Assembly: GCA_018652595.1 (NCBI GenBank)
Contig: JABIBU010000023.1
Span: 1 to 50,732, forward strand
Length of the DNA stretch: 50,732 nt
Source of the DNA: Candidatus Magasanikiibacteriota bacterium
GTDB lineage: Bacteria; Patescibacteriota; Patescibacteriia; Magasanikbacterales; UBA922
Direction of reading: 5' to 3'
Made by a program: the position numbers and the translations under genes. The notes under the pieces were generated by a model. The model did no database searches. It saw only the letters and a program-made list of their open reading frames with translations, and was not told where the DNA came from. Position 1 is the first letter of the stretch. Every line of letters starts with the position of its first letter. This document shows, piece after piece, positions 382-39,478 of this stretch.

Positions 382-3114
382 TTATTCTTTTATTATTGTT
401 TCATATTCTTCCTTAAAGTTTGTATTATGATTTTCATTAAAAAATGGTAATCCTATCAATCTGTAATTGGGATTTTCTGCTTTTATTACATTTTCAAACC
501 CATATTTTTCTGATATTTCTTCTAAAAAAGTCTCTTTCCAACCTTCTTTTCCTGTTTTAAAAGTAGTATCTTCTCCTATAAATTCATTTCCTTTTGGCTC
601 TATAAATACTTGATAATATAATTTATCTTTATTTTTACTTTTTAGAAACAAGATAAAATCTGGCATAAAACCTCTTCCTTTTTTAAAATCATAAATTTTA
701 TAGACTTCTTCATTTCTCAAAAGATGAATTTTGTCATACTTGTTTTCTAAATTTCCAATAGTTTCTTTGATGAATTTTATAAGTGCTTGTTCTTCACTTG
801 TCCCTACAAATCCATCTAAAACATACCATTCATTATCTTTTGCAATATCATCATCTAAATTATTTTCATTAATTGTTTTCGTTTTTGGTTCTGTAAAAAA
901 CTTTTTGAAATTTCCTGTAATAAACTCGCTACCAATTTTTGGTGCAATATTATCTTTTAATTCTGCAAAAATATTATCTAAAAATTTTATAGTAATTCCT
1001 AGTTTATCTTCTCCAGAAATATCGTCATAAGTTTTATTTTTGCTTACGATTATTTTTACATCAAAATCAGCAAGTTTATCATTTTGCAATTCGTCAATAC
1101 TTTCTATATCTAATTCTTTTTTTAATTTTTCAAATTGAAATAGAGAGTTTTCTTGTTTCGCTTTTATGTTAATTGCTTTTTGAAAAATATGTTTTTCTAT
1201 GTTTTTAAATTTTAGACTGATGGTTTGCAGTCCTTTTTCTGACAAACTTAATCTTTGTAAATCTTCTTGATTGTTAAAATCTATTTCTTGCTCGTTAAAT
1301 TCTAAACCTTTAATCTTATATGGAACAAAAAAATCTTTTTTAATATCATCTAAAGTTTTCTTTTTTCTGTTTGGATTATCTATTTGTTTATTATGCCAAA
1401 TTTTTACATTTTTATAAAAATCACTATCTTGAAAATCTTTTTTTAATGCAAAAGTTTTGATTACTTTATCATCTCTAATATAGCCATCTTTTCTTAATTC
1501 TTGTTTTAAATGAGAAATATATCTTGAATCTTCATCGTAAGTATAATAAAAAAGTTCTTCTAAAATTCTTAATTCATTATTTAAATCATCATCAAATTTT
1601 CTTTTATTTTTGATTTTATCATTATATGTAAAAGGGCAATATCTCACACCTCTTCCGATAAGTTGTTTTTCCTTAGTTGTCGCTTCGGGAGTTTTTTTAG
1701 TGCTTCCTCCTGTATTTTGTCCTTGATAAAGTCTTACAATATCAAAAAGGTTTAATACATCCCAACCTTCCGTCAATCTATCTACAGTAAAAATTGCTCT
1801 AATATGATTATTTTTATCTTCTAAACTATTAAGTAGTTTTTCTTGCCCTTCGGTTGTTTTTTCGCTTTTTGTTTTATTTGTTTTAGAATTTGTAATAATT
1901 GTATTTTTTTCTGTAAAACTTCTTTTTATCCAATCAGCAATTTCTCCATATTTGATATTTTCATCTTTAATAAATTTTAAAACTTGTTCTGTTCTGGATT
2001 TTCCTTGTTCATAAAGATTTTTACTATCTTGAATTTTATTTGTTATAACTTTGAAAAAATCAAAATCCTTTGTTTCTAAATTTTCAGTCCAAGTTAAAAA
2101 TTCTTCATAATCTGTTTTTGATTCATCTATTGTTTTACTTCTAAAAAGTATTACTGGTTTGAAATTCGCAATACCATTTTTGAGAGCAATTTTGTGTCTA
2201 TACCATTGAAATAATAATGCTTGTAAAATTCTTTGTTTTTTATCAAGAGTAGAAGAAATAAGGTTTATCTCTTTTGTATATCCAGCACTTAGAAACTCTT
2301 TTAACGTAAACTTATAAATAATTTTATCTTCATACTTTTTTGCTACTTGTTCATTTGCTGGAATTGTTGCAGTATATTCTAACAGCACATTTTTATTCCT
2401 TTTTTTTGTTCCGTTTTTATTTAAAATCAATTCAATTACAGTGTGTTCCCAACCTTTTCTTTCAATATCATCTTTATTTGATGACGCTTTTAATTCTGTT
2501 GCTATTAATTCCTGTTGTATATCTTTCTTTTTTGTATCTGCATTAAAATGATGAGCTTCGTCAGCAAGCATTACAATATTTTTTTTATGTAAGTCTTCTA
2601 GTGTTGTCTGATTTTCTTTTTGCAAGTGAATATCATTATAGAGTTTATGAATCGTAGTAAATTTTATCTCTATCTCTTTGGGATTATCACTAAAAGATTC
2701 TACTTTTTTGATATTTACTGTTTTGTCATTAATTACAATTTTTTCTTTGAATAAGTATTTATTATGAGTATTATCTATAAAATTATTTTCTGTTTTATCT
2801 ACAATATTATTTTGATTTACAAAAAATATAAAATGTCTATATCCTTGTTGATAATAATATAAAATGTTAGAAGCCATTACAAGAGTTTTACCCGTTCCAG
2901 TAGCCATATTAAACATTAGATGAGTAGGGCTATTTGGATTTTCTTTTTCTTTGATAGCTTGAAAAGTTAAAAAGTTTTCAAAAGCCTTTTTTTGCCAATC
3001 AAAAAACTTATATTTCAAATTATTTGAAATATATTCAGATATTTCTGGAAAAGGTAATCTTAATCTGTATGCCTTTTCTCCTATAGTGTCATATAAATAT
3101 TTTATATCTGCCAT
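382..3114 (-). CDS. res: Type III restriction enzyme, Res subunit (DEAD/DEAH helicase-nuclease)
   Basis: This is the ATP-dependent restriction subunit of a type III R-M system. With Mod it cleaves DNA near pairs of unmethylated, oppositely oriented sites. The 910-residue protein has the superfamily 2 helicase motifs in order: Walker A ATGTGKT at residues 71-77, a DEAH-type box in ADEAHH, motif III TAT, and motif VI QLIGRGVRY. A C-terminal PD-(D/E)xK nuclease is visible as MPDFILF followed by FIEPKG. Length and domain order fit Res subunits, and no frameshift is seen. The start codon lies two bases beyond the mod stop codon, so the two genes are probably translationally coupled on one transcript. 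No SD is visible. The gene is very A+T-rich, like mod, and richer in A+T than the chromosomal genes to its right, which fits acquisition as a module. Confidence 0.93.
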   Translation of the reverse strand: MADIKYLYDTIGEKAYRLRLPFPEISEYISNNLKYKFFDWQKKAFENFLTFQAIKEKENPNSPTHLMFNMATGTGKTLVMASNILYYYQQGYRHFIFFVNQNNIVDKTENNFIDNTHNKYLFKEKIVINDKTVNIKKVESFSDNPKEIEIKFTTIHKLYNDIHLQKENQTTLEDLHKKNIVMLADEAHHFNADTKKKDIQQELIATELKASSNKDDIERKGWEHTVIELILNKNGTKKRNKNVLLEYTATIPANEQVAKKYEDKIIYKFTLKEFLSAGYTKEINLISSTLDKKQRILQALLFQWYRHKIALKNGIANFKPVILFRSKTIDESKTDYEEFLTWTENLETKDFDFFKVITNKIQDSKNLYEQGKSRTEQVLKFIKDENIKYGEIADWIKRSFTEKNTIITNSKTNKTKSEKTTEGQEKLLNSLEDKNNHIRAIFTVDRLTEGWDVLNLFDIVRLYQGQNTGGSTKKTPEATTKEKQLIGRGVRYCPFTYNDKIKNKRKFDDDLNNELRILEELFYYTYDEDSRYISHLKQELRKDGYIRDDKVIKTFALKKDFQDSDFYKNVKIWHNKQIDNPNRKKKTLDDIKKDFFVPYKIKGLEFNEQEIDFNNQEDLQRLSLSEKGLQTISLKFKNIEKHIFQKAINIKAKQENSLFQFEKLKKELDIESIDELQNDKLADFDVKIIVSKNKTYDDISGEDKLGITIKFLDNIFAELKDNIAPKIGSEFITGNFKKFFTEPKTKTINENNLDDDIAKDNEWYVLDGFVGTSEEQALIKFIKETIGNLENKYDKIHLLRNEEVYKIYDFKKGRGFMPDFILFLKSKNKDKLYYQVFIEPKGNEFIGEDTTFKTGKEGWKETFLEEISEKYGFENVIKAENPNYRLIGLPFFNENHNTNFKEEYETIIKE

Positions 3115-37678: not shown

Positions 37679-38437
37679 ATGTATGTTTATCTTTATGACA
37701 ATTTTTTGCGTGGGAAAAAGTATGATTCAACTGTAAAAGCAATGGAAACGCGGTTGACAGATTTTGGTATAGCTGGTAAGATAATCCGACTGCAAAATTT
37801 TACAGATTCCAAAGCTATAATAGAAGATGAAATAAAAAAAGGTGTTTCAGGTATTGTGATAGTTGGGAATGATGCAACTTTTGGACATGTATTATCGCGG
37901 GCAGCAACCTGCGATGTTTTATTTGGTTTTTTACCAGTAGGAGGAGACAATCAGATAGCCGAAGTTTTAGGAATTCCAGTTGGGGTTGATGCTTGTGATG
38001 TTTTGTCCAAGAGACGAAAGGTAAAATTGGATGTAGGATGGTTTAATAATCGATATTTTGTGTCCAAACTCCATATTCCGTCTAGTAAAATAACTGTGGA
38101 GTATGATGAAAAGTTCAAGGTCTCTACGAAAGGCAAGGTAGAACTCGTTGTGTGTAATTTGCAACCGTTTGAATGGAAGGGGAAGGGCTCAAAGATTCAT
38201 GTTGTTCACCCTCAAGATGGCAAGTTAGAGGCGTTTTTGCGTCCTATGTCAGGCAAGGGAATATTCAAAGAAAAATACGAAGACCCAAGCATCTTTCCTT
38301 TTCAGGAAATGGTAGTTAGCTCTAGAAAACCTTTTGTAGTAGAGGCAGACGGCAAACAGTCAAAGGAAACCAAAATCAAGATTAAATTGACCAGGAAGAG
38401 GATTGAGATGATAGTAGGTCGTGAGAGAAAATTTTGA
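37679..38437 (+). CDS. Diacylglycerol-kinase-like protein with altered nucleotide motifs
   Basis: 252 residues with the outline of the DAG kinase/lipid kinase catalytic fold. The segment GIVIVGNDATFGHVLSRA occupies the place of the GGDGT motif, FGFLPVGGDNQIAEVLGIP that of PLGTxNDFA, and KVKLDVGWFNNRYFVSKL the start of the second domain. In known kinases GGDGT binds ATP phosphates; here it reads GNDAT, and the downstream glycine loop also differs. The protein may be an inactive or retargeted relative, perhaps binding a lipid or nucleotide. Its second half is all-beta, as expected for YegS-type proteins. The start at 37679 has no SD. Family placement is from fold pattern by eye. Confidence 0.65.
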   Translation: MYVYLYDNFLRGKKYDSTVKAMETRLTDFGIAGKIIRLQNFTDSKAIIEDEIKKGVSGIVIVGNDATFGHVLSRAATCDVLFGFLPVGGDNQIAEVLGIPVGVDACDVLSKRRKVKLDVGWFNNRYFVSKLHIPSSKITVEYDEKFKVSTKGKVELVVCNLQPFEWKGKGSKIHVVHPQDGKLEAFLRPMSGKGIFKEKYEDPSIFPFQEMVVSSRKPFVVEADGKQSKETKIKIKLTRKRIEMIVGRERKF

Positions 38438-38509: not shown

Positions 38510-38590
38510 GCGCGAGTCGTTAAATTGGTACCGTGCACCACAAGGGTGCACGGCCATGTACCCTTGTGGTACATGGAACACGCTAAATTG
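38510..38590 (+). pseudogene. 5' part of a tRNA-Leu-like gene, interrupted in its D loop
   Basis: GCGCGAG (38510-38516) fits a tRNA acceptor 5' strand, followed by TC, a D-stem GTT and the D-loop AAATTGGTA typical of tRNA-Leu. A twin hairpin (38531-38576) then intervenes, and AACACGCTAAATTG (38577-38590) resumes as D-stem 3' strand and anticodon-stem 5' strand. The complementary acceptor strand CTCGCGC lies at 39010-39016. Either a tRNA gene broken by insertions or a relic of duplication. Confidence 0.55.
38531..38576. repeat. Twin hairpin with complementary loops, copy 1
   Basis: Two perfect 9-bp hairpins lie directly side by side: stem 38531-38539/38545-38553 with loop ACAAG, and stem 38554-38562/38568-38576 with loop CTTGT. 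The loops are reverse complements of one another, as is the whole ACCACAAGGGT/ACCCTTGTGGT core. A near-identical 10-mer (CGTTAAATTG at 38519-38528, CGCTAAATTG at 38581-38590) flanks the unit. Confidence 0.85.
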
Positions 38591-38595
38591 TTTAT

Positions 38596-38850
38596 ATGTA
38601 TTACGTCTATATTTTATTGATGTCAAATAAAAAGTTTTATATAGGTTATACATCTAATTTAAAAAGAAGAATAACCGAGCACAGAAGTGGTGGTAATAAG
38701 ACAACAAAAAAGTTTTTACCTGTGAAATTAATATTTTATGAATGTTATCTAAACAAAGATGATGCGACGAGGAGAGAAGGATATTTTAAAACAAGTAAAG
38801 GTAAAACAGCACTTAGAATAATGTTGACTAAAACTTTAGAAAATAATTAA
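38596..38850 (+). CDS. GIY-YIG nuclease-domain protein
   Basis: An 84-residue stand-alone GIY-YIG domain: YYVYILLMSNKKFYIGYTSN carries the two signature strands (YVYIL and FYIGYT, with the second tyrosine and glycine), Arg27 or Arg28 is in LKRRITEH, and a glutamate in RREGYFK is the metal ligand. The family includes UvrC, YhbQ-like proteins and intron- or mobile-element homing enzymes. Here the gene begins six bases after the anticodon-stem segment of a broken tRNA-Leu-like gene and sits between two twin hairpins, so a homing or mobile-element role is plausible. A housekeeping YhbQ-like role is the alternative. No SD is seen. Confidence 0.88.
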   Translation: MYYVYILLMSNKKFYIGYTSNLKRRITEHRSGGNKTTKKFLPVKLIFYECYLNKDDATRREGYFKTSKGKTALRIMLTKTLENN

Positions 38851-38852
38851 AT

Positions 38853-38935
38853 GCTCAGGTGGCGGAATGGTAGACGCGCTAGCTTGAGGGGCTAGTAGGG
38901 GCAACCCTGTGGAGGTTCAAATCCTCTTCTGAGCA
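38853..38935 (+). tRNA. tRNA-Leu (anticodon GAG)
   Basis: Full cloverleaf with a long variable arm. Acceptor GCTCAGG pairs with TCTGAGC (one G-T), discriminator A at 38935, anticodon stem CTAGC/GCTAG around the loop TTGAGGG (anticodon GAG), T arm GGAGG TTCAAAT CCTCT. The CCA end is not encoded. It lies only two bases after the GIY-YIG stop codon. Confidence 0.95.
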
Positions 38936-38940
38936 CTGTA

Positions 38941-39017
38941 TATAGGTTCACCATGAACCACAAGGGTTCATGGTAGTAGTGCACCCTTGTGGTGCTCTAC
39001 AAGTCCTCTCTCGCGCA
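38941..39017 (+). pseudogene. 3' part of a tRNA-Leu-like gene, interrupted in its T loop
   Basis: TATAGGTTCA (38941-38950) looks like the 5' half of a T arm. A twin hairpin (38951-39000) follows, then AAGTCCTCT (39001-39009), CTCGCGC (39010-39016) and a discriminator A (39017). CTCGCGC is the exact complement of GCGCGAG at 38510-38516. There is no anticodon arm in this part. A decayed duplicate of the 3' end of another tRNA-Leu is the alternative. Confidence 0.55.
38951..39000. repeat. Twin hairpin with complementary loops, copy 2
   Basis: First hairpin: 9-bp stem 38951-38959/38965-38973, loop ACAAG. Second hairpin: stem 38976-38985/38991-39000 with one T-T mismatch, loop CTTGT. Stem sequences differ from copy 1, but pairing and the complementary loops are kept, and a six-base overlap region separates the two hairpins. 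Confidence 0.85.
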
Positions 39018-39066: not shown

Positions 39067-39475
39067 CTTATTACATAGTGGATGACAGCTCTTGAGCCCC
39101 GTGCTTAGGAGAGGAAAGTCCGGACTTTCTCCCGATTTAATCGGGAAAAAAGGTAGTGGGTAACACCCGTCGGTCGTGAGACTTGAGATGCGAGCAGTGA
39201 CGTGCTAGACCGAAAGGTCGAGCAACCCGATTTATCGGGATAATCCTGTAGTAATACAGGGGTGAAACGGCTAAATTCTTACCTGAGAGAAAGAGCAGCC
39301 CTTCGACTCACTTCGTTCGCTCAGAGCAAGCCATCAAGCTTGTTTTGAGTGAATGAAGCAGAGTTGATTGGAAAAGTTAGCTCGTTTGAGCTAGATAGTA
39401 ATATCTAGCCTAGAGAAATTGTCGTCATCCCGACTTAGTCGGGATACAAAATTCGGCTTATAGCTATGTGATAAG
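39067..39475 (+). ncRNA. rnpB: RNase P RNA (bacterial type A)
   Basis: Catalytic RNA that removes 5' leaders from pre-tRNAs. Seen: the P1 helix, CTTATTACATAG (39067-39078) with CTATGTGATAAG (39464-39475); the near-universal GAGGAAAGTCCGG; the GGGTGAAACGG segment; and AGAGAAAT near the 3' part. The RNA carries at least four repeat-derived hairpins: TCCCGA/TCGGGA at 39130-39146, CCCGAT/ATCGGG at 39226-39240, a long stem at about 39311-39360, and ATCCCGA/TCGGGAT at 39427-39445. These are likely peripheral helices modified by insertion. Ends are set by P1. Confidence 0.92.
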
Positions 39476-39478
39476 TAA

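Follow-up and report, generated by a model that had tools for sequence, protein, structure and literature searches.

A GIY-YIG nuclease gene within a broken tRNA-Leu(GAG) gene of a Magasanikbacteria genome: a probable copy of a widespread minimal mobile element of tRNA genes

The stretch of DNA analyzed here (the window; 50,732 nucleotides) is contig 27 of a 0.96-Mb genome, and the loci of the same family with which it was compared come from Candidatus Magasanikbacteria. In the region between a gene for a protein with a diacylglycerol kinase domain (DAGK) and the RNase P RNA gene, it carries the remains of one tRNA gene, a complete second tRNA gene, a small nuclease gene, and two composite hairpins, arranged as follows.

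37679..38437, plus strand: DAGK gene (PF00781), outside the element; a conserved neighbor that anchors the empty-site comparison.
38510..38530, plus strand: 5' remnant of the native tRNA-Leu(GAG) gene, consisting of the acceptor strand GCGCGAG (38510-38516) and the 5' part of the D arm (sequence; match to the orthologous tRNA).
38531..38576, no strand assigned: D-loop twin hairpin (38531-38553 and 38554-38576, with the complementary loops ACAAG and CTTGT), recognized by inverted repeats and folding at -31 kcal/mol.
38577..38590, plus strand: rest of the 5' remnant, with the 3' D stem and the start of the anticodon arm (AACACGCTAAATTG), where the native tRNA breaks off (ortholog match).
38596..38850, plus strand: gene for a GIY-YIG nuclease of 84 aa that falls in clade 3, which is tRNA linked (PF01541, E value 2.3e-16; tree).
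38853..38936, plus strand: intact tRNA-Leu(GAG), the sole one found in the genome and closest to the tRNAs of another bacterial family (tRNA calls; identity comparison).
38944..38949, plus strand: 3' remnant of the native tRNA-Leu(GAG) gene, T-arm AGGTTC (sequence; ortholog match).
38950..39000, no strand assigned: T-loop twin hairpin, an inverted copy of the D-loop twin, recognized by inverted repeats and folding at -27.5 kcal/mol.
39001..39017, plus strand: rest of the 3' remnant, AAGTCCTCT with the acceptor strand CTCGCGC (39010-39016) and the discriminator A (sequence; ortholog match).
39070..39476, plus strand: downstream RNase P RNA gene (RF00010, 104.5 bits), outside the element.

The initial annotation had taken GCGCGAG at 38510 and CTCGCGC at 39010 for the acceptor strands of a single tRNA, with a D arm and the start of an anticodon stem on the left and a T arm on the right, and the sequence bears out both the pairing and the tRNA character of the flanks. 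Compared with the hairpins removed (left, GCGCGAGTCGTTAAATTGGTA+AACACGCTAAATTG; right, AGGTTC+AAGTCCTCTCTCGCGCAC), the remnant pieces are up to 88% identical to the orthologous tRNA-Leu(GAG) genes of relatives (83% and 96% for the best match of each piece), whereas shuffled pieces reached a maximum of 69% against the same tRNAs in 500 tries. The relatives carry a tRNA-Leu(GAG) that matches the pieces; in one of them (L167), the acceptor stem GCGCGAG...CTCGCGC recurs unchanged in an unbroken tRNA. A native tRNA-Leu(GAG) gene has been broken in two here, one end lying at 38510-38590 and the other at 38944-39017. It lacks about 16 nt that would have formed the variable arm and the 3' side of the anticodon arm, and it is therefore a broken gene rather than one that splicing could make whole. 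The spliced or trans-assembled product that had been envisaged is unsupported, given this gap in the native tRNA and the failure to find an intron.

The complete tRNA-Leu(GAG) in the middle is, like the GIY-YIG gene that precedes it, a solid assignment, and it is the only Leu(GAG) among the 41 distinct tRNAs found in the genome. Its best matches among 286 genomes of the class lie in other families (93% identity in family f26, against at most 86% in its own family), and its match to the window remnant is weaker (66% and 88%). An intact tRNA-Leu with the acceptor GCGCGAG elsewhere in the genome, which had been raised as a check, is not among the 41 distinct tRNAs. As the foreign-looking tRNA is the only Leu(GAG) found and an intact GCGCGAG tRNA is lacking from this set, it seems that the foreign tRNA took over the job. 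To judge from its sequence, the intact middle tRNA appears to be a working replacement, foreign in origin and now serving the cell, and we infer that it came together with the nuclease gene; no element-bearing donor was found, the close matches in other families being without the nuclease gene. The same genome offers a second case at a Leu(CAA) locus (L013), where the downstream remnant, compared by eye, looks like a tRNA from a different genome (L094) and unlike the adjoining intact copy. The window and probably L013 are exceptions in this respect: most remnants at the other loci are identical to the intact copy, which indicates local duplication rather than a foreign donor and counts against our main reading.

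Comparison with relatives showed that the site is usually empty. The DAGK gene was found in 44 of the 46 genomes of the family, and in the 30 orthologous loci taken it is followed by a tRNA-Leu(GAG). All but one other of these 30 family loci have a single unbroken tRNA-Leu(GAG) at the site of the window, and a nuclease gene is present there only in the window and in genome G033 (L078), where the RNase P RNA also adjoins an independent element. Genus g27 shows both states at two sites with matching flanks: at Leu(CAA), G035 carries an element and G032, G033, and G034 do not; at Asp, G032 and G034 carry one, and the site of G035 is empty. A gene that lies inside a conserved host gene and has empty alleles in relatives conforms to the pattern of a free-standing homing endonuclease. 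We also considered a tRNA-integrating genomic island and rejected it: the insert consists of the nuclease gene and the tRNA only, and the break is in the anticodon loop, not at the 3' end of the tRNA. The flanking genes searched (coding for a histidine kinase, bactofilin, DAGK, a sugar transferase, and one protein without a Pfam match) include no integrase. In phage and plasmid records, tblastn found no related gene, which we count against our main reading. At locus L282, a tRNA remnant with a D-loop hairpin lies upstream of tRNA-Leu(GAG), and another tRNA remnant lies beside an intact tRNA-Val(TAC), both without a nuclease gene; these are apparent relics left after loss of that gene.

The window GIY-YIG protein retains the invariant residues Y5, Y15, G17, R25, H29, and E61, and its fold and catalytic Tyr, Arg, and Glu residues make it a member of the GIY-YIG superfamily. 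The AlphaFold model (pLDDT 91.8) predicts a fold whose nearest solved counterparts are UPF0213, SLX1, and I-TevI. PF01541 covers residues 1-70 of the 84-aa protein, in which a DNA-binding domain of the I-TevI type (NUMOD or similar) was not found, a bareness that we count against a homing function. Clade 3 proteins are under purifying selection, with dN/dS values of 0.11-0.24 in the three pairs with an estimable dS (dS being saturated in the others).

The host genome of the window codes for nine GIY-YIG proteins, and six of the nine genes abut tRNA genes; across the family, the number per genome ranges from 1 to 12. We examined 125 GIY-YIG ORFs with their surroundings from the 46 genomes of the family, and a tree divided them into three clades. 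The clade to which the window gene belongs, clade 3 (66 genes; support 97/88), is tRNA linked: a same-strand tRNA lies at most 160 nt away in 51 of its 66 genes and a tRNA fragment is present in 9 more, whereas 0 of the 55 genes of the other two clades in the same genomes are so linked (Fisher P = 6e-21). The initial annotation had suggested a mobile element targeting tRNA-Leu genes and a search for its recurrence in or beside such genes in related genomes; the recurrence is there, and it extends beyond tRNA-Leu to tRNA genes of at least 16 isotypes. That a common small nuclease gene merely came to lie beside tRNAs that had undergone ordinary duplication and decay might be entertained on account of the sheer number of GIY-YIG genes, but the difference between sister clades, the invariably shared strand, the recurrent break point described below, and the presence and absence of the gene within one genus all argue against such chance, to which we assign practically no probability.

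The linkage extends well beyond this family. In a wider bacterial scan, a same-strand tRNA was present at most 160 nt away in 44 of 80 loci (these being the best matches to one query, so that the share is not a census), and all 44 tRNAs were on the gene's own strand; the 80 loci come from many phyla and groups, with Patescibacteria, Omnitrophota, Planctomycetota, Bacteroidota, Rickettsiales, and Ignavibacteria represented. The clade 3 protein tree clusters by tRNA isotype, requiring 23 changes against 36.2 upon shuffling, with none of 200 shuffles as low, and the upstream or downstream architecture is random on the same tree (11 versus 10.9 changes). Isotype clustering combined with random architecture is expected for target-specific nucleases. 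A different GIY-YIG group, seen at L048, L073, L088 (second gene), and L126, has a short T-arm-like match beside the gene; at L048 this match adjoins the tmRNA gene, and an association with tmRNA is possible.

The loci usually display one of two layouts. In the commonest, a 5' tRNA half (to position 34-37) is followed by the nuclease gene and then by a complete tRNA that often overlaps the stop codon; in the reverse layout, a complete tRNA is followed by the nuclease gene and a 3' tRNA half. In many cases, the partial copies end at positions 34-37 or begin at 32-37, and they are often 100% identical to the intact copy (the automatic remnant search misses about 10 loci with diverged or interrupted remnants). 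The usual break, in the window as in the other elements, is in the anticodon loop. An earlier suggestion that the locus is a relic of repeated tRNA duplication holds in part, in that duplication of half a tRNA belongs to the way in which the element occupies its site, but this is duplication in a different sense than the one proposed. At L134, L147, and L151, units of remnant plus nuclease gene are repeated in tandem on one side of a single tRNA, before it or behind it. Either several insertions or unequal crossing-over may have given rise to them, unless they reflect an assembly error.

The anticodon loop is a classical site of introns in tRNAs. An open reading frame in this position could belong to a group I intron spliced from the tRNA, and the protein does weakly resemble a group I intron endonuclease model. 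However, RF00028 was found at the insertion neither in the window nor in the 20 linked loci searched, the single hit being a group I intron at L091 (1156-1384) that lies beyond the tRNA, just past a tRNA-Ala carrying a GIY-YIG element. Moreover, the complete tRNA that follows the ORF makes splicing unnecessary, and the GIY-YIG inserts of CPR rRNA are not introns either (PMC11270868). We hold the intron explanation to be very improbable.

As for the twin hairpins, the placement of one in the D loop and another in the T loop was confirmed. The D-loop twin has two perfect 9-bp stems, and the T-loop twin has a perfect 10-bp stem and a weaker stem; in either twin, one loop is complementary to the other, and the T-loop twin is an inverted copy of the D-loop twin. 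With a relaxed criterion, a strict one (stem of at least 7) having missed most remnant hairpins, a GC-rich hairpin was found on 44 of 51 remnant sides, part of these being the tRNA's own arms (T-arm hairpin), against 824 of 3,970 random windows, and a twin hairpin was found on 11 of 51 sides against 37 of 3,970 windows. In remnants that can be aligned across the insert, the latter is as a rule exactly the hairpin; it abuts the tRNA match directly and lies in the D, anticodon, or T loop. A frequent layout is a hairpin followed by its own reverse complement. The reverse complement of RAWTSGAAC, the motif of the phage enzyme SegB discussed below, is GTTCSAWTY, which we take to be a tRNA T-arm sequence, and the T-loop hairpin cases lie in the sequence corresponding to this motif.

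The enrichment on remnant sides, the exact and flush insertion, and the hairpin that interrupts a protein-gene remnant at L083 favor a functional role for the twin hairpins within the element (as its ends, nuclease recognition sites, or RNA structures) over their being passengers. Against it stand the T-arm hairpins that contribute to the count and the occurrence of dispersed palindromes outside the element. Although the window twin itself yielded self-matches only in the genome, palindromes built in the same way are scattered through it: TCCCGA..TCGGGA palindromes occur 14 times, twice within the RNase P RNA of the window (39130-39146 and 39428-39444), and an apparent ClpB gene, near which no nuclease gene was found, contains in frame a twin hairpin (TCCGCCCAAGGCGGATCCGCCTTGGGCGGA; L292, approximately 820-850; G000:C25:19422-19451). 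Since such palindromes occur elsewhere, hairpins of this kind exist independently of the element, and a functional role, though it merits consideration, is rather unlikely. Our conclusion is that they form a dispersed palindrome family of their own, which favors or accumulates in the dead tRNA copy. Double-hairpin elements and Rickettsia palindromic elements are short palindromes inserted in RNA loops and coding genes. They resemble the twin hairpins, and the palindromes described here differ in their enrichment in dead tRNA copies next to GIY-YIG genes; the twin inside the ClpB-like gene may be likened to a Rickettsia palindromic element.

A few relatives of the window gene lie outside tRNA genes. 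At L099, a clade 3 gene (near 1565-1822, minus strand) is situated close to the 3' end of a protein gene, the coding end of which is duplicated (98 bp, 84% identity), and at L083 (1538-1783), one occupies the end of an apparent glycyl-tRNA synthetase gene, whose old end persists downstream, interrupted by a hairpin. At L140, a clade 3 gene lies in 16S rRNA, and at L199, from the wider scan, a GIY-YIG gene lies in 23S rRNA. The common thread of these exceptions is that the host gene is restored or spared. In both rRNA inserts, at L140 and L199, a long stem closes the loop in which the gene lies (CCCCACACCTT/AAGGTGTGGGG; CCCGCACCTTTT/AAAAGGTGCGGG).

We consider it highly probable that the window contains a copy of a minimal mobile element that is widespread: a free-standing GIY-YIG gene that enters tRNA genes, in most cases at the anticodon loop, without depriving the host of a functional tRNA. 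The best reading of the sequences is that such elements would be free-standing and homing-endonuclease-like, restoring or replacing the tRNA that they interrupt. We infer DNA cutting, homing, and any role of the hairpins along the following lines. The nuclease would cut an empty tRNA gene, and repair from an element-bearing copy would insert the nuclease gene together with the replacement tRNA part. The leftover remnant would be free to decay and would gather palindromic hairpins, perhaps at the cut sites of the nuclease. In the window, the native tRNA-Leu(GAG) would have been broken in this way by an element that brought a complete foreign tRNA-Leu(GAG). The resemblance of the restored tRNA to an intact target counts against this reading.

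The adjacency of the gene to a tRNA in most loci would also suit an RNase or toxin-like tRNA cutter, rather than a homing enzyme, with the linked tRNA as its antidote or reserve, and tRNA-cutting systems with compensating tRNAs are known (SegB/Septu; PMC13096335). Half-tRNA duplications, a single insertion site, and empty sites are instead marks of insertion at the DNA level, and members of the same clade also occur in protein genes and 16S rRNA. PADLOC matches are weak and partial, and on this count a defense system was rejected as well. A tRNA cutter is hence improbable in our assessment, and we retain the mobile, homing-like element as the preferred reading.

We would put somewhat short of even chances on a broader proposal, namely, that bacteria harbor a large and ancient family of selfish genes that persist in tRNA genes by rebuilding them. 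At times, such a gene would replace the host's single copy of an essential tRNA by a foreign one, on which the host then depends; the nuclease lineages would be specialized by isotype, and the hairpins of the dead copies would mark cut sites. tRNA genes are among the most conserved targets; they are also essential, so that their invasion should be hard. The way in for this family would be to bring along the missing tRNA half or the whole tRNA. This would account for tRNA-gene fragments beside intact copies and for very small GIY-YIG genes without an assigned role, and it would provide a route for the horizontal replacement of a tRNA isoacceptor. Small natural nucleases that are apparently sorted by isotype should be useful for understanding how GIY-YIG domains find their targets without a DNA-binding domain. 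To occupy essential genes in this manner, without killing the host, appears to be a mode of life not yet described; the open-license literature yielded no account of bacterial GIY-YIG genes that rebuild tRNAs, a scope that falls short of proof of novelty.

Among known systems, small proteins of the UPF0213 and Slx1-like kind provide the closest solved folds (1zg2, 1ywl, SLX1), but in these genomes neither of the remaining two GIY-YIG clades is tRNA linked. A 2024 survey of inserts in CPR rRNA, which holds no tRNA data, reported GIY-YIG ORFs that are not introns and judged them to be outside a homing context (PMC11270868); these share the host group and the nonintron GIY-YIG ORFs with the elements described here, and the clade 3 gene in the 16S rRNA of L140 falls into the same setting. 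The nearest known enzyme in habit is SegB of T-even phages. In T4/T6, it is a free-standing GIY-YIG homing enzyme with the motif RAWTSGAAC; its gene lies beside tRNA genes, and the enzyme cuts inside tRNA genes and spreads or amplifies the linked tRNA region (PMC13096335). It differs in that its gene is the neighbor of a phage tRNA cluster, and the source gives no account of its splitting and rebuilding a tRNA (PMC13096335), whereas the genes reported here are bacterial, clustered by isotype, inserted into the tRNA, and confined to a bare domain. The nearest systems in organization are the mobile ORFs of fungal mitochondria, which make gene hybrids in Allomyces atp6 and in Glomus atp6, atp9, cox2, and nad3 (PMC3630166). 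In these, an endonuclease ORF enters an essential gene with a replacement gene end, sometimes a foreign one, and the old end is left as a remnant (PMC3630166), just as the elements here carry a replacement gene part and leave the old part as a remnant. The fungal ORFs occupy mitochondrial protein genes and are mostly of the LAGLIDADG type, in contrast to the bacterial genes and, for the most part, tRNA targets of the present family, of which L099 and L083 are the bacterial protein-gene counterpart of the fungal hybrids. By analogy, the similarity between the two would be one in the way of working.
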